Source: Thermoplasmata archaeon (GTDB taxonomy: Archaea; Thermoplasmatota; Thermoplasmata; RBG-16-68-12). Taken from it: 64,000 nucleotides of DNA. The first letter of the stretch is position 1. Each line of letters starts with the position of its first letter. The notes under the pieces were generated by a model. The model saw nothing but the letters and a program-made list of their open reading frames with translations. It did not search any database and had not been told where the DNA came from. A program made the translations under genes and the position numbers. The stretch covers positions 1 through 64,000 of the forward strand of contig DASWDU010000018.1 of NCBI GenBank assembly GCA_036395115.1. Direction: 5' to 3'. Positions 11,684 to 19,768 of the stretch are shown here, in pieces.

Positions 11684-12571
11684 GTGGAGCCGAACGTGTT
11701 GCCACACGATCGGCCCAGGCAGGTCGATGTTGTGAGCATCGAACCCGACTGTTCCACCCAGTCGCCGAATCGAGGCATCGCCTTTGAAGCTGCTGCCCGG
11801 GTCGCCGGATACATCCGCGTCTCAACGGAGGACCAGGCGCGGGAAGGGTTCAGCTTGGACGCGCAGGCGACAAGACTGCGGAAGTACTGCGAGGCGAAGG
11901 GCTGGTGGCTCGTCCGGATTTACCGAGACGAGACCAGCGGAAGAGCGACGACGAGGCCCGCCTACCGACGGATGATGGCCGACATGGACACGTGGGATGT
12001 CCTGCTCGTGGTGAAGCAGGACCGGATCCATCGCAACGTCCGGAACTTCTACGAGATGGTCGACGAGCTGCGTGCGAACGGCAAGCAGTTCGCCAGCGTG
12101 GAAGAGTCGATAGACACCACTACCGCAATGGGTTGGGCGTTCATCGGCATCCTTGCCATTTGGGCTCAGCTGGAATCGGATCAGATCTCGGAACGGGTCC
12201 GGAAGGCGATGCCTGTGGCCAGGGCCAAGAACTACCACCTGGGCCGTCCGCCGATCGGATTCGTCTGGGTAAAGGCCACGAAGACGTTCGAGCCCACGGA
12301 ATGGGCACTCGCGATTGAGGCGGCCGCGTCCGCATATGGCGTCGTAGAAGCGGGCAAACTCCATCCCTATCCGGACGGCAAACGGGCAGGCGACTCTGTC
12401 TCGGAGAGATCTGTACGACGAGTCTTGGAGAACTTGGAGCTCTACCGGGAGGGTCGCCTTGTCCCGAACGGCCTCTCCGAGGACCGCTACCGCTACAAGT
12501 CGTTGGAGGTCCCGACGGGAGAGATGATGAGGTCGCCCCTTCATGGCGGTTGTGAGAAGATTGGCCTATAG
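11684..12571 (+). CDS. Serine recombinase, short form
   Basis: The catalytic resolvase domain is complete: VAGYIRVSTEDQAREG with the nucleophilic Ser, FSLDAQ, then DVLLVVKQDRIHRN and the long E helix (AQLESDQISERV). After it comes a reduced recombinase domain (HLGRPPIGF, RSVRRVLENLELY), and the zinc ribbon and coiled coil of large serine integrases are missing. At 295 residues it is shorter than typical large serine recombinases. The start is uncertain. GTG at 11684 and GTG at 11732 are in frame, and neither has a clear TATA box. It runs against the three-gene cassette and overlaps its last gene by six bases. Confidence 0.8.
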   Translation: MEPNVLPHDRPRQVDVVSIEPDCSTQSPNRGIAFEAAARVAGYIRVSTEDQAREGFSLDAQATRLRKYCEAKGWWLVRIYRDETSGRATTRPAYRRMMADMDTWDVLLVVKQDRIHRNVRNFYEMVDELRANGKQFASVEESIDTTTAMGWAFIGILAIWAQLESDQISERVRKAMPVARAKNYHLGRPPIGFVWVKATKTFEPTEWALAIEAAASAYGVVEAGKLHPYPDGKRAGDSVSERSVRRVLENLELYREGRLVPNGLSEDRYRYKSLEVPTGEMMRSPLHGGCEKIGL

Positions 12572-13144
12572 GACGCCAGTCACAAGTCTATAGTTGCCGG
12601 GATGCCGATCTCCATGGGGCCTCAATGTTGACACCTTGACAACCTTGACCTTGTGAGTGATTCCAAAGGACGACCGGGGGCGAATGACGTTCGCCTTGAG
12701 GACCGAGATGCCCTCTAAGACCTCGCCTTGCTGAAGAGGAGCGAAACGCACCGACGTGAGACCGACGAGCGGAATGAGCAACCCGCACTGCATCAGGGCC
12801 GAGACCTCTTTTAGACCGCCGTAGTGGGGGTCGGCGGGGGGATATGTTTTGGTATTGACTTCCATGATTTCGCCGTTGAACGCGCACATGGGAGTTCCTC
12901 GAGTCAGCAGCTCGAGAAATCTTGTGGGGGCCCCGACCCCGGTTTCGACTCGTCTCAGGAAGAGGGCCAATGCAACACTGAGGTCGATCTCCAACTCGGC
13001 GTCGAGAGTCGAGCCGATGAGTCTGCTATCTGCCTGCTCCTGGGGATGACGAAGATAATCGCTACTACCCTCCCATTCGGTATCACTCACAAGGAAGGTT
13101 ACTTCCATCTTGCCCGATTTCAGTATGCTGTCCAAACTATCCAT
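12566..13144 (-). CDS. Cassette protein C, unknown
   Basis: This 192-residue protein was not recognised. It is soluble, of mixed helix and strand, with no signal peptide, membrane segment or cysteine cluster. It begins MDSLDSILKSGKMEVTFLV and contains a run of hydrophobic strand segments (CGLLIPLVGLTSVRF). Its first 25 bases overlap the end of the preceding cassette gene, which argues for coupled translation and joint function. Codon use is visibly less GC-rich than in the flanking genes, a sign of transfer. A role in defence or as an effector is only a guess from context. Confidence 0.55.
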   Translation of the reverse strand: MDSLDSILKSGKMEVTFLVSDTEWEGSSDYLRHPQEQADSRLIGSTLDAELEIDLSVALALFLRRVETGVGAPTRFLELLTRGTPMCAFNGEIMEVNTKTYPPADPHYGGLKEVSALMQCGLLIPLVGLTSVRFAPLQQGEVLEGISVLKANVIRPRSSFGITHKVKVVKVSTLRPHGDRHPGNYRLVTGVL

Positions 13145-13920
13145 CCATCGCCGGTTTCGTACCGGACTACGACCCGCAAAGCCCCTGACTGGTAGAGCCA
13201 GTTTCCTCCTTGCGGTATGGGTGTTGAGGTTCTTATGGTGTGCCCAATCGCGCCGAAAACCTCCTCTTCGGATTGGAGGCGTAGCTTTTGCGTTATTTGC
13301 GTGAAGCGGGAGAACGGGGCTTTGGTGCCGACGTCCTCATAGAAATGGAGGACTGTCCGCTCTGGGAATGAAACTATTCTGCCGGTTTGGTCAGCAAATC
13401 TGAACTTGGTGGCCAACCTTCCGAGTTCGGCTCTTTCAAAGAATTCTGCCGTTCCTTGCGGAATCTCGTAGCTCGGCTCCGCGATCAATCGCGCTCGGGG
13501 CGCCTGTCCAATGAATCCTCTCTCTGCCACATAGGCCCTTGAAGCAGCTTCATCAAATCCAGAAAGGCCTGCCTTTCCGGCACCCACTTCAGAAAGGCTT
13601 GCCTTTCCGGCAGGGAAGAAGGTCTCGGGTTTCAGCTCGGCCAATGGGCAGAATGGAGTCGCCACGAACGCGTCGACCAATGGGCTTGGAAACGCGAGGA
13701 GCACCGCCAATGTCACGGACGATACAGAGTCATGCGGAAACCCCGGATCGAAGTGCAACGAAAACGATTCCGTGAGCAGATCGAGCCGCTCGTGCGGAAG
13801 ATCGATGTCGGGCGATGTCTCCTCACCTTCGAACCAGTCAGCGAAGCTTACTCCGTCCAACATGCCCGATTCCCGCATTGCGCGAGAGCCGAGATGAAGC
13901 TTGCCACCGAGGAGGACCAC
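13120..13920 (-). CDS. Cassette protein B, unknown
   Basis: This 266-residue protein was not recognised. It has an N-terminal part (about 1-105) that is also present in the broken copy at 11.2-11.5 kb, a short internal repeat (AGKASLS, AGKAGLS), and a C-terminal part rich in strands and aromatic residues (VLHFYEDVGTKAPF, GDGWIVWTAY). There is no signal peptide or membrane helix. The start ATG at 13920 is 12 bases after the stop of cassette gene A, and its end overlaps gene C, so A-B-C form one operon. Conservation of only the N-terminal half between copies may mean two domains. Confidence 0.55.
   Translation of the reverse strand: MVLLGGKLHLGSRAMRESGMLDGVSFADWFEGEETSPDIDLPHERLDLLTESFSLHFDPGFPHDSVSSVTLAVLLAFPSPLVDAFVATPFCPLAELKPETFFPAGKASLSEVGAGKAGLSGFDEAASRAYVAERGFIGQAPRARLIAEPSYEIPQGTAEFFERAELGRLATKFRFADQTGRIVSFPERTVLHFYEDVGTKAPFSRFTQITQKLRLQSEEEVFGAIGHTIRTSTPIPQGGNWLYQSGALRVVVRYETGDGWIVWTAY
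13561..13620. repeat. Two tandem 30-base repeats with inner palindrome
   Basis: Units start at 13561 and 13591, both beginning AGAAAGGCYTGCCTTTCCGG. Each contains GAAAGGC-NT-GCCTTTC, a perfect seven-base inverted repeat. A third unit lies at 11208-11237 in the broken copy. In the coding frame they produce the AGKASLS/AGKAGLS repeat. Confidence 0.7.
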
Positions 13921-13932
13921 AGGGAGACAGGC

Positions 13933-14214
13933 CTACCAGGGCGGTTTGGGCAGGAACGGATAGTGTGTCTTCAACTGCTCGTAGATCTCCCGTCCGTGCT
14001 TCGGAGACAGGTACACGGCAGGGCCGTGCTTTGTGGACTTGCGGAGGACCGTCCCTTCCCGTTTCAGGGTTTCCAGAGCCGCCTTGAGGTTCGCGATTTG
14101 ATCGGGCGGAAAGCCACGAAGGAGGTTATCCTCGAGCATGTGGTGCTTCCCGAACACTCGATGGCGGTAAAGCTTGTACAGGATCGCGGCTTCGTCCCGT
14201 GAAATGTCTCTCAA
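13933..14214 (-). CDS. Cassette protein A, small winged-helix-like protein
   Basis: The protein has 93 residues, mainly helical, and ends in a probable wing (GTVLRKSTKHGPAVYLSP), which together with the preceding helix NLKAALETLKREG fits a winged-helix DNA-binding fold. The N terminus (DEAAILYKLYRHRVF) could be the first helix. As first gene of the cassette and placed next to the promoter, it is probably an autoregulator or an antitoxin-like part. No close family was recognised. It is divergent from the regulator at 14281, with only 66 bases between the two starts. Confidence 0.6.
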   Translation of the reverse strand: MRDISRDEAAILYKLYRHRVFGKHHMLEDNLLRGFPPDQIANLKAALETLKREGTVLRKSTKHGPAVYLSPKHGREIYEQLKTHYPFLPKPPW

Positions 14215-14237
14215 GCGCGCGGCAATCGGATGAGAAG

Positions 14238-14258
14238 GTATTAGTAGCCAGTGTTAAC
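14238..14258. promoter_or_regulatory. Divergent promoters of cassette and regulator
   Basis: On the minus strand CTAATACC (14238-14245) lies about 27 bases before the cassette ATG at 14214. On the plus strand TTAAC (14254-14258) lies 25 bases before the ATG at 14281. Both spacings suit leaderless transcripts, so the two transcription units share a 66-base control region. Confidence 0.45.
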
Positions 14259-14280
14259 TATCTTTACGCAGGTGTAAGGA

Positions 14281-14718
14281 ATGTTTACAGACATCTTCGG
14301 CAATGCGCCCAGGGTCAGGCTCCTGGATTTCCTGACGGATCACCCCGACTTTGACTACACCATCTCCCAGATGGCGGAGTTCGGTGAGATCGCCCGACCC
14401 ACGGTCTACAAGCTCGTGGAGGAGCTGCTGGGTCAGGACATGCTGACCTTCACCCGTTCGGTGGGGGATTCCAAGTTCTACCGTCTCAATGTCGCGAATC
14501 CTCGGATCGTTTCGATGTTGCAAGTGGACTTTGAAGGCATCAACAAGGAACTGGCCGCCCGGGTGTACAATGAGATGTCCGGTGCCGCGACAGAGCCCAA
14601 GAAGTCCCGCGCCGGTGGCCCCTCGCGAAGTCGCCTCTCCCACCGAGGGCGTGTGGTGCCGGTCCGTGCATATCCGAGGCGTGGCGTTCGAAGAAAGGGA
14701 CCGAAGTCGTCCGATTGA
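14281..14718 (+). CDS. Winged-helix transcriptional regulator
   Basis: The protein has 145 residues. Residues 1-75 form a winged helix: FGNAPRVRLLDFLTDHP, YTISQMAEFGEIARPTVYKLVEELL and a wing ending at FYRLN. Such FGN-type starts are common in archaeal ArsR/MarR-like regulators that decide on early exit from transcription. The last 45 residues are basic and disordered. The ATG follows a TATA element by 25 bases. It faces away from the cassette and could control it through the shared promoter region, but it may equally belong to the chromosome backbone. Confidence 0.75.
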   Translation: MFTDIFGNAPRVRLLDFLTDHPDFDYTISQMAEFGEIARPTVYKLVEELLGQDMLTFTRSVGDSKFYRLNVANPRIVSMLQVDFEGINKELAARVYNEMSGAATEPKKSRAGGPSRSRLSHRGRVVPVRAYPRRGVRRKGPKSSD

Positions 14719-14759: not shown

Positions 14760-15005
14760 TTACTTCTCGACGGCGATCTCGTACTCGTGGATGACGGGGT
14801 TCGCGAGGAGCCGACGGCACATCTCCTCGACCTCCTTCAGGGCCGTCTTCGCGTCCTTCGTGACGAGGTCGATCCGAAAGAGCTTCGAGCTGCGGACCGC
14901 CCGGACGCCCTCGAATCCGAGTAGCTTGAGGGCCTTGTGGACGTTGTCCCCCTCCGGGTCCGTGACGCCGGGGCGGAGGCGGACCTCCACTCGGACGCGG
15001 ACCAA
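14760..15005 (-). CDS. purS: Phosphoribosylformylglycinamidine synthase subunit PurS
   Basis: The 81-residue protein has the PurS pattern: RVEVRLRPGVTDPEGDNV, then ALKLLGFEGVRAVR, KLFRIDL and the C-terminal helix-strand EMCRRLLANPVIHEYEI. PurS dimers bridge PurL and PurQ in the FGAM synthase complex and are needed for ammonia channelling. The best start is a TTG at 15005. An ATG slightly upstream is in another frame. The gene is separated from purLQ by 6 kb and instead follows two CARF-type regulators on the same strand, with 36 bases between. Confidence 0.92.
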   Translation of the reverse strand: MVRVRVEVRLRPGVTDPEGDNVHKALKLLGFEGVRAVRSSKLFRIDLVTKDAKTALKEVEEMCRRLLANPVIHEYEIAVEK

Positions 15006-15041: not shown

Positions 15042-15656
15042 TTAGGCCTTTCCCGGAGCGGCCGCGAGGTGCGACCGGAACAGCGAGGACCGCTCGGACG
15101 GCCGGGCAAACGACCGACCGGCCCGCACCTCGATCGTCAGGAGGCCCTTCGATGCGAGGGACCGGATCGCCGCGACGGCCGTCCGGCGGCTCATCCCGCG
15201 GGCTCCCGCGCGGGCGACGAGCCCGTCCACGGTCACCGCCCGTCGGACCAGGGCCATGATCGCCCGCTCCGACGCCGGGAACGGCTCTCCCAGGCGGACT
15301 CCGGAGAGGACCGGCAGCCGGATCGGCGTCGTCTCGCAATACCACGTCTCGATCCCCTCCAGGAAGGCCGCGAGGATCGCGGCGTTCGCCAAGATCTTCG
15401 TGCCGCCGCTCACGCTCAGCCGGACGGGTCCCTCCCGCGCCGACTCGAGGATCGTCCGCCGCACGGTCCCGAGCGAATCGAGGAGATCGAACGGACGGAC
15501 GACGACAGATCGGAGGGACGGCTCGAGGTCCTTCAGCCGGCGGAAGCCCGCCGACCGGAAGCTGTCCCGGCCCGCCACGACGACGAGCCGGTCATACGGC
15601 ATGAGGCGCAACGCCGGCAAGACGTGCCGCTCGTCGAAGCCCATCGTGACGATCAG
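15042..15656 (-). CDS. CARF-domain winged-helix regulator, second of a pair
   Basis: The N-terminal 120 residues form a Rossmann-like CARF domain of the HFX_2341/Csa3-like kind: strand 1 IVTMGFDERHVLPALR, and the ligand loop SVSGGTKILANAAILAAF (SGGTK at 83-87). The C-terminal part is a winged helix (RAIMALVRRAVTVDGLVARAG). CARF domains in CRISPR systems bind cyclic oligoadenylates. Here no cas gene is near. The ATG at 15644 would cut strand 1, while a CTG at 15656 restores MIVTMGFDER, in register with the paralogue upstream. The gene follows its paralogue by 19 bases. Confidence 0.78.
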   Translation of the reverse strand: MIVTMGFDERHVLPALRLMPYDRLVVVAGRDSFRSAGFRRLKDLEPSLRSVVVRPFDLLDSLGTVRRTILESAREGPVRLSVSGGTKILANAAILAAFLEGIETWYCETTPIRLPVLSGVRLGEPFPASERAIMALVRRAVTVDGLVARAGARGMSRRTAVAAIRSLASKGLLTIEVRAGRSFARPSERSSLFRSHLAAAPGKA

Positions 15657-15675
15657 CGTGCGTCGGCCCGTCCGT

Positions 15676-16311
15676 TCACCCCACGAGGAGGTCCATTGCC
15701 GGAGCGGGCTTGACGATCAGCTTCCTCGCGTCCCTCGCGTCCGCCAGGCGTTCGATCGCGCCTTTCGCGTCGAGCTCGCGGAGGTGGTGGTTCATCGTCG
15801 CCTTGTGTACGCCGAGCGCCCGGGCGAGCGCCGTCTCCGTGAAGTCCTTCTCCCGGTTCTTCACAAGGAACGTCAGGACCTCCCGCTGTTTCGTCGTGAG
15901 GCCTTCGCCGTACGTGATGCGAAGCAGGGGAAGCGGGATTTCCTGATACGTCTCGTCGTGGACGTAGGTCGCCGGGATGCCCTCGAGGACGCAGACCAGA
16001 AGGGCGGCGCTGCTCATGAGCCGCGTGCCGCCCGCGATGTTGAACCGGAGGTCCGAGCCGCTCGCCCGGTCCTTCCGGATGTCGGCCCGGATCTGCGTGG
16101 CCACGTGCAGCAGGTCGAACGCGTCGCTCACCTCGTTCGCGGTCGCGGACAGGCCAAGGGCGCGACAGAACTCCATGACCTTGGCCCGCGCATCGCGGCT
16201 CTTCGCGTGGTCGCTGTGGTAGAACACGACCCGCTCGAGGCCCTCCGTCGACCGGATCGAGGGGATGAGGCTCTGAGGCCGCCATCCGAGCGTGCCGAAC
16301 AGGACGGTCAT
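15676..16311 (-). CDS. CARF-domain winged-helix regulator, first of a pair
   Basis: The protein has 211 residues with the same plan as its neighbour: strand 1 TVLFGTLGWRPQSLIPSIR, a long helix-rich middle, the loop NIAGGTRLMSSAALL (GGTR at 94-97) and a C-terminal winged helix with TTKQREVLTFLVKN and LARALGVHKATMNHHLREL. The two share architecture but are only distantly similar, so this is an old duplication. Function is inferred: a ligand-sensing transcription factor. It is the first gene of a probable operon with the second CARF gene and purS, a context that suggests nucleotide-linked regulation. Confidence 0.8.
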   Translation of the reverse strand: MTVLFGTLGWRPQSLIPSIRSTEGLERVVFYHSDHAKSRDARAKVMEFCRALGLSATANEVSDAFDLLHVATQIRADIRKDRASGSDLRFNIAGGTRLMSSAALLVCVLEGIPATYVHDETYQEIPLPLLRITYGEGLTTKQREVLTFLVKNREKDFTETALARALGVHKATMNHHLRELDAKGAIERLADARDARKLIVKPAPAMDLLVG

Positions 16312-16392
16312 CGCGACCCGCCGAGAGGCCGTTCCGACGATATGAACTTCCTTCCAACCGCGGACACGGAAGGTCCACTCCGGGCGAAACCA

Positions 16393-17018: not shown

Positions 17019-17366
17019 ATGGCATTCACGTTCCGCGCGAAGCGCGGTAAGGAATCCGAATTCGAGCGCGTGCTGAACAATCCGGAGGGCGGGAAGGTGG
17101 TCGCGAGAGGACTCGGTGCGACCCGGAATGCGCTGTTCCTCAAAGACGGACAGATGATCCGGATCATGGAGTTCCCGGATGGCGCACGGCCGAAGTCTAT
17201 GGTCGAGGTCGCGGAGGCCGACGCGAACCTGAAGGCGTTCCTGCGCCGGCTCGGCCCGCTCGTCGAGGACGGTTTCGATGTCGATGTGCCCGGGAGCCTG
17301 GAGGCGTTCAACCGCCGCATTTCCTTCGCGCCGGCGTACGACGTCCACGTGGGGCCGGGCGCCTAG
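17019..17366 (+). CDS. SchA/CurD-like dimeric alpha-beta barrel protein
   Basis: Of about 115 residues, the N-terminal half (MAFTFRAKRGKESEFERVL) and the end (VPGSLEAFNRRISF) resemble ferredoxin-like monooxygenase or SchA/CurD-like domains. These bind polyketide-like or other hydrophobic substrates, but also occur in many proteins without known function. A second ATG lies at 17013, two codons upstream. A TATA-like GTTATTT at 16978-16984 gives a short leader. It is convergent with the JAMM-like gene and overlaps its last four bases. Confidence 0.55.
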   Translation: MAFTFRAKRGKESEFERVLNNPEGGKVVARGLGATRNALFLKDGQMIRIMEFPDGARPKSMVEVAEADANLKAFLRRLGPLVEDGFDVDVPGSLEAFNRRISFAPAYDVHVGPGA

Positions 17367-17995
17367 TCCGCCCACGGGAGGAGCAGGCGCGCCTCGCGCG
17401 TGTCGACGAGGTCCCATGCCCCGGGCACCCCGTCCGGCTCGCCTTCGATCCAATACCCACCGATCGTCATGTCGTACCCGTGCGTCGGGTCGGTGGCGAC
17501 CGTGCACCCGAGCTTCCGCCGGTATCGGCGGGTCGTCCACCCGGCCGCACGCCGGCGAGACCATTCCCGACGCTTGAGCGCGACGACCACCTCGAGCCAT
17601 TCGGCCCGGTCCATCGAGTGGCTCCGGGACAGGCGCTTCAGTTCGTCGCTGACGTAGTCGAGATCCGTGGCGGAGAGGCTCGCCACCCCATCCGCCCCCG
17701 TGTGGCTGTGGAAGCCGCCGAGGACCGCATACCCGACGTCCGCGCTCTCGATCACGCCTCGCGCGCGACGGAACGCCTTCTCGTTCCCGTGGCTCACCCA
17801 GTTCGGCTTGCGGTCCTCCGTCTGGAGCGGATATGCGGCCCGCAGGACGGTGACCTCCCTCGGCCGGCGTCGCAGGATGCGCGTCCCGCGGTTCCCGACA
17901 AGGAACCCGTTCGTCTCGCGGTTGTACGCCTCCACGGCGGAAGCGACCAGGCCGACGAAGCAACCGCGTTCGATGACGACATCGTCCATGGGCAC
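17363..17995 (-). CDS. JAMM/MPN-like protein
   Basis: The protein has 210 residues. NGFLVGNRG after an N-terminal Glu and GGFHSHTGADGVASLSATD in the middle are the MPN fold signature of Zn-dependent isopeptidases (JAB1/Mov34). In the classical JAMM motif seven residues separate HxH from SxxD, whereas here it is nine if the second Ser-Ala-Thr-Asp is used. The metal residues are all present. The C-terminal 80 residues are basic and unusual for the family. Archaeal relatives remove ubiquitin-like SAMP proteins. No SAMP or E1 gene is near, so activity is inferred. Confidence 0.68.
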   Translation of the reverse strand: MPMDDVVIERGCFVGLVASAVEAYNRETNGFLVGNRGTRILRRRPREVTVLRAAYPLQTEDRKPNWVSHGNEKAFRRARGVIESADVGYAVLGGFHSHTGADGVASLSATDLDYVSDELKRLSRSHSMDRAEWLEVVVALKRREWSRRRAAGWTTRRYRRKLGCTVATDPTHGYDMTIGGYWIEGEPDGVPGAWDLVDTREARLLLPWAD

Positions 17996-18412: not shown

Positions 18413-19768
18413 GTGGCGAAGCTCACGTTCTACGGCGGGGTCGCGGAGATCGGCGGGAACAAGATCCTCCTCGAAGACCGCGACGCCCGCATCTGGCTCG
18501 ACATGGGCGCCCCGTTCGACCTGGGCGAGGACTATTTCGTCGAGTTCCTCGGCCCCCGGGACCGGTTCGGCCTCCGCGACTACTTCGCGCTCGACTTGAT
18601 GCCGCGGATCCCCGGCCTCTACTCGGCCGAGGCGCTCCTCCCGACGGACATGGCGTACGAGCCGCCGGCGTTCTCGGGAATCTTCATCACCCACGTGCAC
18701 TACGACCACACGCAGCACCTCCGCTACGTCGATCCGAACATCCCGGTCCACATGGGCGAGGGCGCCCGGACGATCTTGGAGTCGCTCGATGCGACCGCGC
18801 GCACGCCGATGATGCGCCTCGGGTCCCACGCGTACGCGACGTTCCGGTCGGGCCAGGCGACGACCCTCGACGGGGTCGAGGTCGAGCCAGTCCACGTGGA
18901 CCACAGCGCGCCCGCCGCGTACGGCTACCTCGTGCACACGAGCGCCGGCACGATCGCCTACACGGGCGATCTACGCCACCACGGCCCGATGCGACGCCTC
19001 ACGGACGACTTCATCGAGGCCGCACGGGCCGCGAAACCGATCGCCCTGATTACGGAAGGCACGCGCGTCACCCCGGACGACCCGCGCGCCAGCCTGACGG
19101 AGGCCGACGTCAAGGAGAAGGCGATCCGGCTCCTCGGTTCGGCGAAGGACAAGCTCGCCCTCGTGACGTTCCCGGGCCGCGACGTCGACCGCATCCGGAC
19201 GTTCTTCGAGACCGCGCAGGCGGTCGGTCGGAAGTTCGTCGCCAACGCGAAGACCGCGCATCTCCTCCTGACGCTCAAGAAGGACACGCACATACAGGTC
19301 CCGGACATCGCGAAAGAGGGCGATTTCCTCCTGTACGATCGGCTGATGCGGAAGACGGACCCATGGGAGCGGGAGCTCCAGGACAAGCTCGCGGGCCGCG
19401 TGGTGACGGCCGAAGAGATGGCGAAGCGGCCCTCCGAGTACCTCGTCCAACTCGACTTCTGGCACCTCCCCGAGCTCGTGGACCTCCAGCCGCCGGCCGG
19501 CTCGCCGTTCATCCACTCGAAGAGCGAGCCGTTCGAGGAAGACGACGTCAACGATGCGGTGCTGCAACACTGGCTCGACCGGTTCCACCTCGTGCGGCAC
19601 CAGCTCCACGCGTCCGGCCACCTCAGCGAGAGGGAGGTCGGTGAGATGATCCAGGCGATCGACCCGGAGATTGTCCTGCCGGTACACACGGAACATCCCG
19701 ACCGCTTCACGCGGCTCGCCCGGCACGTCGTCCAGCCGGAGCGCCTCCGGCCGGTCGATTTCTCATGA
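18413..19768 (+). CDS. Ribonuclease J-type metallo-beta-lactamase (beta-CASP) nuclease
   Basis: The 451 residues start with KLTFYGGVAEIGGNKILLED, the typical RNase J opening, and have the metal motif HVHYDH at 94-99, a second metal region VDHSAPAAYGYLV, and Asp in YTGDLRHHG. The beta-CASP part follows. Near the C terminus HASGHLSE and PVHTEHPD give motif C and the last His. Archaeal RNase J has 5'-3' exonuclease activity in RNA decay. It starts with GTG, coupled to the PRC-barrel gene. Confidence 0.9.
   Translation: MAKLTFYGGVAEIGGNKILLEDRDARIWLDMGAPFDLGEDYFVEFLGPRDRFGLRDYFALDLMPRIPGLYSAEALLPTDMAYEPPAFSGIFITHVHYDHTQHLRYVDPNIPVHMGEGARTILESLDATARTPMMRLGSHAYATFRSGQATTLDGVEVEPVHVDHSAPAAYGYLVHTSAGTIAYTGDLRHHGPMRRLTDDFIEAARAAKPIALITEGTRVTPDDPRASLTEADVKEKAIRLLGSAKDKLALVTFPGRDVDRIRTFFETAQAVGRKFVANAKTAHLLLTLKKDTHIQVPDIAKEGDFLLYDRLMRKTDPWERELQDKLAGRVVTAEEMAKRPSEYLVQLDFWHLPELVDLQPPAGSPFIHSKSEPFEEDDVNDAVLQHWLDRFHLVRHQLHASGHLSEREVGEMIQAIDPEIVLPVHTEHPDRFTRLARHVVQPERLRPVDFS

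Follow-up and report, generated by a model that had tools for sequence, protein, structure and literature searches.

CARF domains have been studied almost only as receivers of the cyclic oligoadenylates made by Cas10. Among the best described are the Csa3 regulators (TIGR01884; structures 2wte, 6w11 and 6wxq), which combine a CARF domain with a MarR-like winged helix and carry a G-x-R/K motif in the pocket. Pocket residues of Csa3 contact cA4, and the substitutions F10A, F14A, G96A and R98A abolish binding, according to two reports (PMC8844856; PMC8699464); the second gives the palindrome TCCC-N8-GGGA as the Csa3a operator (PMC8699464). A precedent for a CARF regulator that senses RNA ends outside CRISPR is RtcR, which activates an RNA repair operon as a sigma-54 AAA+ protein and whose CARF domain binds tRNA halves (PMC7790460). 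The K/R of oligoadenylate-binding CARFs is mostly missing in RtcR, and CARF families typically found away from cas genes, such as MA0186 and DET1451, were already noted in 2014 (Makarova et al.; PMC4012209).

The two genes described here, carfA and carfB, resemble these orphan families in not lying near cas genes. They were found in a stretch of 64,000 nucleotides, called the window throughout, from a 2.4 Mb archaeal MAG in 50 contigs (98.45% complete, 2.89% contaminated). Both proteins belong to the PADLOC CARF3--CARF clusters PDLC01853 and PDLC01856, whose models say nothing of a partner, an operator, a module or a function. Since both match catalogued CARF models, the fold was already known, as were orphan CARF genes; what is new is a 19-bp dyad, a recurrent enzyme module and a putative CRISPR-independent circuit. 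A literature search found no paper on the pair, the operator or the module; the 2020 classification of CARF domains lay outside that search and may describe part of them. The features of the locus are as follows.

15676-16311, minus strand: CarfA, first of the pair, CARF domain and winged helix, 211 aa (PADLOC, AF2, Foldseek, alignment of 41 rows)
15042-15644, minus strand: CarfB, CARF domain and winged helix, 200 aa from the first ATG (PADLOC, AF2, Foldseek, junction comparison)
14760-15005, minus strand: purS (PF02700, E 1.6e-28), downstream neighbour with family-specific linkage, not part of the module
16322-16366, minus strand: carfA promoter block of the window's genus, a TATA-like TTCATAT followed by a GTCGG-type predicted operator half-site (alignment A6 of 13)
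17363-17995, minus strand: JAB-domain (Prok-JAB) protein (PF14464, 4.7e-6), candidate module member in family f1 only
18413-19768, plus strand: RNase J-like metallo-beta-lactamase (MBL; PF12706, 1.8e-11) with a weak RMMBL domain (PF07521, 5.8e-4), candidate module member

Those relatives that carry titles are MAGs of Euryarchaeota, Thermoplasmata and Methanomassiliicoccales archaea, a group called Thermoplasmatota here; many of the genomes compared are incomplete MAGs. Labels such as f1 and g2 denote families and genera, G-numbers genomes and L-numbers loci. Calling genes by the longest ORF is not reliable in high-GC DNA such as this, and several of the ORFs listed are antisense shadows.

A first-pass annotation of the window had described two genes of one plan, a Rossmann-like domain followed by a winged helix, and PADLOC, AF2 and Foldseek all confirm it. 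CarfA matches PDLC01853 (5.7e-106) and CarfB matches PDLC01856 (3.3e-83), each over its full length. Mean pLDDT of the AF2 models is 92.9 for CarfA (alignment of 41 rows) and 90.6 for CarfB (built on 15045-15671; alignment of 40 rows). The comparison with Csa3 that the annotation had proposed gave a CARF fold for both proteins, with Csa3 2wte as the top solved match in Foldseek (E 1.5e-9 for CarfA, 5.2e-7 for CarfB); a structure of another fold, which it had named as grounds against its reading, was not what the models gave. CarfA aligns to CARF domains with Z about 17 and rmsd about 2 over 115-128 residues (VIA-align), and its winged helix to MepR with Z 13.6 and rmsd 1.7 over 79 residues. 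Pfam reports CRISPR-type Rossmann domains in both proteins and a MarR-like winged helix in CarfA (PF12802, 1e-8); the winged helix of CarfB, poorly conserved in sequence, is recognised from its AF2 model. Family cut-offs are passed only in part: CarfA reaches 30.3 bits against Cas_APE2256 (PF09651, gathering score 24.8), for which CarfB is not listed, and both stay below HFX_2341_N (PF19810, gathering score 30; CarfB 27.7, CarfA 24.8 bits). Likewise, the TIGR01884 cut-off of 60.2 bits is missed by both (CarfA 39.3, CarfB 17.4), in which they differ from Csa3, as they do in forming a tandem pair. At 211 and 200 aa, with a CARF domain and a winged helix only, they do not have the architecture of RtcR. 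Judged by predicted structure and by pocket motifs, CarfA and CarfB are members of the CARF superfamily.

Of the two gaps given in the first-pass annotation, that of 36 bases between carfB and purS stands, while that of 19 bases between carfA and carfB fits only a CTG start of CarfB at 15656; counted from the ATG at 15644, it is 31 bases. In relatives, CarfB starts at or just after the CarfA stop and often overlaps it, and beta-strand 1 (RTLIVT) is therefore assigned to CarfB. The corresponding part of the window, 15644-15671, contains no ATG, GTG or TTG. The first ATG is probably preceded by the true start, a CTG at 15656 or an ACG at about 15671; the absence of a common start would reflect such an ACG or CTG start, or else an assembly error.

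The GGT(K/R) loop that had been read as a ligand loop is real. In the CarfA alignment, T7, G9, R11, GG94-95 and T96 are kept in 41/41 rows, as is R/K at position 97; in CarfB, the GG is kept in 40/40 rows, K in 35/40 and G11 in 38/40, and the T is kept too. The first motif of CarfA is T-h-G-(W/F/Y/H)-R and the second GG(T)-R/K, the former differing from motif 1 of Csa3, T-h-G-F-(N/D)-E-X4-R. T-h-G-F-D is kept in part of the CarfB rows, and the CarfB of the window has TMGFDE. When paired by motif, the pocket positions of both proteins would match the F10, G96 and R98 region of Csa3. The invariance of the CarfA residues spans rows with 42-86% identity to the window protein.

A search of 100 relatives found CarfA at E <= 0.001 in 43, many of them distant, and a full CarfA (best E below 1e-50) in 30, with a further contig-end fragment in G034. 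CarfB comes right after CarfA in 42 of 44 loci of named Thermoplasmatota genomes, and the contigs of the other two end within 82 bases; these loci overlap the G-numbered genomes used elsewhere, and the two sets are not independent. It is on this near-invariant order that the pair is called ancient. When 292 genomes of the phylum were searched with a profile, 15 gave CarfA at 1e-25; eight of these lie outside the class and represent seven families. CarfB adjoins it in five of those eight; the contigs of G156 and G284 stop 11 and 307 bases past CarfA with no match to CarfB, and in G132 CarfB is truly absent. A broken CarfA-like paralogue with an internal TAG is present at L176 5584-6072 in G010, a genome that has lost the carfAB locus.

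A repeated element is found upstream of carfA; the operator sequences come from related genomes. The element GTWTNA-N14-GTWTNA, first spotted by eye, is exact in 12 of 21 non-redundant upstreams from outside f1, and at other spacings from 4 to 26 the repeat is found in at most 2/21. With one mismatch allowed it is found in 18/21, compared with a mean of 0.575 and a maximum of 4 in 200 shuffles. In most loci it lies 68-73 bp from the CarfA start. Viewed as a 19-bp dyad, GTNNNA-N7-TNNNAC, it is exact in 8/34 upstreams and within one mismatch in 19/34, while other spacers from 0 to 20 give at most one exact and five one-mismatch cases; in some lineages the same spacer test finds no dyad. A third half-site is often present at a 20-bp period. 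The half-sites drift (GTATTA, GTTTGA, GTCCGA, GTTCGA), and the geometry is constant, L182 and L187 from two out-of-class families included. The promoter block is conserved in the window's genus, in which the dyad itself is degenerate. The dyad at the carfA promoter across lineages points to autoregulation, with a putative operator that differs in form from that of Csa3a. AT-rich sequence just upstream hints at an operator overlapping the core promoter and hence acting in repression; that it represses and does not activate is guessed from where it lies.

Strong copies of the element are scarce elsewhere. Of the 10 sites that a pattern with centre constraints has in 13 genomes, seven are carfA promoters; the reversed control matched none in those 13. 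The carfA promoter is the dominant site of model R1 in 28 of 29 genomes and of model R2 in 13 of 19 f1 genomes, each of the 13 having one strong match to the promoter block; as these hits are largely training sites, only the absence of other sites is informative. No second strong copy was found with R2 in the 19 f1 genomes. The six without a strong match are G003 and G010, which lack the pair, three of genus g2, and G012. In family f8, a second candidate operator faces in reverse before a HAD-MBL gene pair in 6/8 loci at two mismatches or fewer (shuffle maximum 5) and is exact in G024; as evidence for a second operator this is suggestive only. Three individual sites were noted. An opposite-strand candidate copy in G024 (L111, C37 8931-8956) precedes, by about 73 bp, a short ORF that contains a CxxC and is divergent to carfA. 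In G027, a predicted operator-like site that fits the pattern exactly (L112 795-820) precedes a gene for 131 aa by 68 bp, and next after this gene comes an RNase J-like one of the window's MBL family; the site is a lead only, since R1 fails to recover it at E <= 1. The best R1 match outside carfA promoters, which also fits the pattern exactly, is the perfect palindrome CGGTATTAATATTATTAATACCG in G069 (L108, about 1497-1526), in front of a ZIP transporter gene and with a PiT-DUF47 pair (named by eye) on its other side.

The enzymes that recur beside the pair were counted in 56 loci, the 44 named ones and 12 from G-numbered genomes. An RNase J-like MBL is near carfA in 25/56 (families f1, f8, f41 and f45). 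The protein of the window keeps HxHxDH and scores 69.5 bits against RNase J (TIGR00649), short of the cut-off of 400, so that it is called only RNase J-like. A HAD hydrolase is near in 20/56, in 19 of them head-to-head with carfA, and is found beside the pair in families f2, f3, f8, f41, f47, f48 and f49. Motif I of HAD hydrolases is usually DxDxT; the copies beside carfA at L053 8652-9116, L049 7388-7933 and L055 10784-11437 read D-A-E-G-T, and that of G127 reads DLDCT. A small CARF-like gene, carfC, and a PIN protein are present in 6/56 loci (f2, f41 and the L087 lineage). Pfam matches of carfC are below cut-off, and it was assigned through PADLOC: carfC and the PIN protein match the CARF half and the PIN half, respectively, of CARF_PIN (CARF_m1, PDLC01973), with the difference that here they are two genes, located downstream of carfAB, and that the f2 carriers have no Cas10. 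The JAB gene is near in 15/56 loci, all f1. No neighbour is universal: 18/56 loci, mostly Methanomassiliicoccales-like, have none of HAD, MBL, PIN, carfC, JAB or purS nearby (among them L093, L094, L096-L099, L101 and L189-L192). A histone deacetylase-like gene (L101 6264-7370; PF00850, 4.5e-80) is convergent to the pair in Methanomassiliicoccales-like loci. The tightest arrangements are in G127, with carfA-carfB-carfC-PIN-HAD-MBL in that order on one strand, and in G132, where carfA and MBL overlap by 4 bp. Because MBL, HAD and PIN proteins each belong to a large superfamily, some of these neighbours may be paralogues.

Loss of the pair offers a further view of its linkage. In G003 and G010, both of the window's genus, AAA-purS and PH2-PRC-MarC are in place, and carfAB, JAB and MBL are all missing from that part of the genome. 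From the gene order, it looks as if carfAB, JAB and MBL were removed together from three separate places, whereas PH2 and PRC, interleaved with them, remain. In a tree built from six neighbouring proteins the two genomes are sisters (support 1.0), placed beside module-bearing genomes (0.93), which makes this look like a single event.

CARF-winged-helix folds, a near-invariant tandem, a dyad at a fixed distance and linkage to HAD, MBL and CARF-PIN proteins are supported by computation. Taken with the predicted structures, they make it fairly probable that CarfA and CarfB form a CARF circuit that is autoregulated, independent of CRISPR and associated with RNA-directed enzymes, and that responds to a nucleotide or RNA-end ligand. 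The two would be co-inherited transcription factors of Thermoplasmatota, working outside CRISPR. As homo- or heterodimers bound to the dyad, they would keep their own operon repressed; the HAD(-MBL) operon that lies head-to-head with it may be a further target of repression in some lineages. A ligand with negative charge, either a nucleotide or an RNA end, would bind across the pocket of the CARF dimer and alter DNA binding, and the linked enzymes may cut or trim RNA, or destroy the ligand. A bolder form, which we offer tentatively, is that CarfA-CarfB with the HAD, RNase J-like and split CARF-PIN proteins make up a complete, vertically kept archaeal nucleotide-signalling circuit with its own messenger or RNA-end signal, in a role that may predate recruitment to CRISPR. 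The pair is kept across the phylum, with no Cas10 found in the 30 CarfA genomes searched for it, and has an intact pocket, a defined candidate operator and RNA-directed enzymes, and a non-CRISPR role of CARF domains thereby becomes testable at the bench.

A sharper form of this explanation is an RNA-damage sensor like RtcR, with an RNA end (e.g. a 2',3'-cyclic phosphate) or a short oligonucleotide as ligand and RNA processing by the linked enzymes. What RtcR and the pair share is control of transcription through a CARF domain in a setting other than CRISPR, and a tie to RNA enzymes: RNase J-like MBL, PIN and HAD proteins look RNA-directed, and RtcR has its known affinity for tRNA halves (PMC7790460). 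However, MarR-like winged helices replace the AAA+ activator and the enzymes are others, neither MBL nor HAD is linked to any substrate, and CarfA keeps the K/R that RtcR mostly lacks (PMC4012209). This narrower reading is less likely than not. The opposite simplification, a plain autoregulated DNA-binding pair that does no signalling and has its neighbours by chance, would account for a strong candidate operator found essentially only at carfA and for the lack of a universal neighbour. It is nonetheless unlikely, as pocket residues are invariant over the range of identities given above, recurrence beside the pair extends to seven families for HAD, four for MBL and three lineages for PIN, and carfAB, JAB and MBL were co-lost, albeit in one event.

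For the circuit favored here, the source of the ligand is narrowed by the signalling enzymes that the genomes encode. The annotation had reported neither cas gene nor CRISPR array in the window, and this holds: no CRISPR-like triple of exact 20-mers spaced 45-90 bp is present. Its caveat of a type III or I system elsewhere in the genome was followed through the hallmark genes Cas1 and Cas10, neither of which was found in the 50 contigs. Among the 100 relatives, Cas1 is present in 22 and the Cas10 palm domain in one (G049); among the 30 with full CarfA, Cas1 is in G024 only and the Cas10 palm domain in none, a lack of linkage that sets the pair apart from Csa3. Its suggestion of a ligand other than Cas10-made cyclic oligoadenylate is thus likely for these orphan regulators, the genome having no CRISPR hallmarks that were found. 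A Cas10-made ligand is accordingly unlikely across the 30 CarfA genomes. Diadenylate cyclase (DAC) is found in 14/100 relatives and in none of the 30, and c-di-AMP from a DAC enzyme was rejected. SMODS (CD-NTase) matches occur in 17/100, four of them among the 30 (G031, G038, G051 and G077; two above cut-off, frames of 448-475 aa); judged by their length, these four are presumed to be CCA-adding enzymes. Neither Cas10 nor DacZ nor a CD-NTase is a probable source of the ligand.

The pair could still be a CRISPR accessory that answers the cyclic oligoadenylate of a type III system missed or recently lost. Its nearest solved structures are cA4-binding Csa3 proteins, the pocket motifs are retained, and III-A is the most abundant CRISPR subtype of Thermoplasmatota (PMC12669027). 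Yet the counts of Cas10 and Cas1 just given argue against it, G003 of the same genus has Cas1 but not the pair, and a pocket conserved for long without CRISPR speaks against a relic. We regard a CRISPR accessory as quite improbable.

The annotation had also linked the pair to purine synthesis and asked whether it is always beside purS, which proved true only of family f1. In 20 longer loci, purS is near the pair in 10/10 from f1 and 0/10 from outside; in the full count it adjoins the pair in 14/56, all f1. Regulation of purS or of purine synthesis by the pair, with a purine nucleotide as its ligand, has a very small chance of being right: purS does lie downstream on the same strand in every f1 locus whose contig reaches it (the 14), but the linkage is confined to f1, the gap widens to about 280-500 bases in genus g2, purS is single-copy in each of the 12 genomes searched and outside f1 lies on a different contig from carfA, G003 and G010 keep it after losing the pair, and a second strong promoter element is missing from the 19 f1 genomes. 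On gene order, the adjacency is a local accident of one family.

Between the AAA ATPase gene and purS, the window holds a stretch (11684-14718) in which one ORF resembles a serine recombinase (11684-12571, judged by eye), another lies at 13933-14214 and a MarR-like one at 14281-14718. The last two have no match in 12 syntenic loci of family f1, for which reason the stretch looks like a recent insertion.
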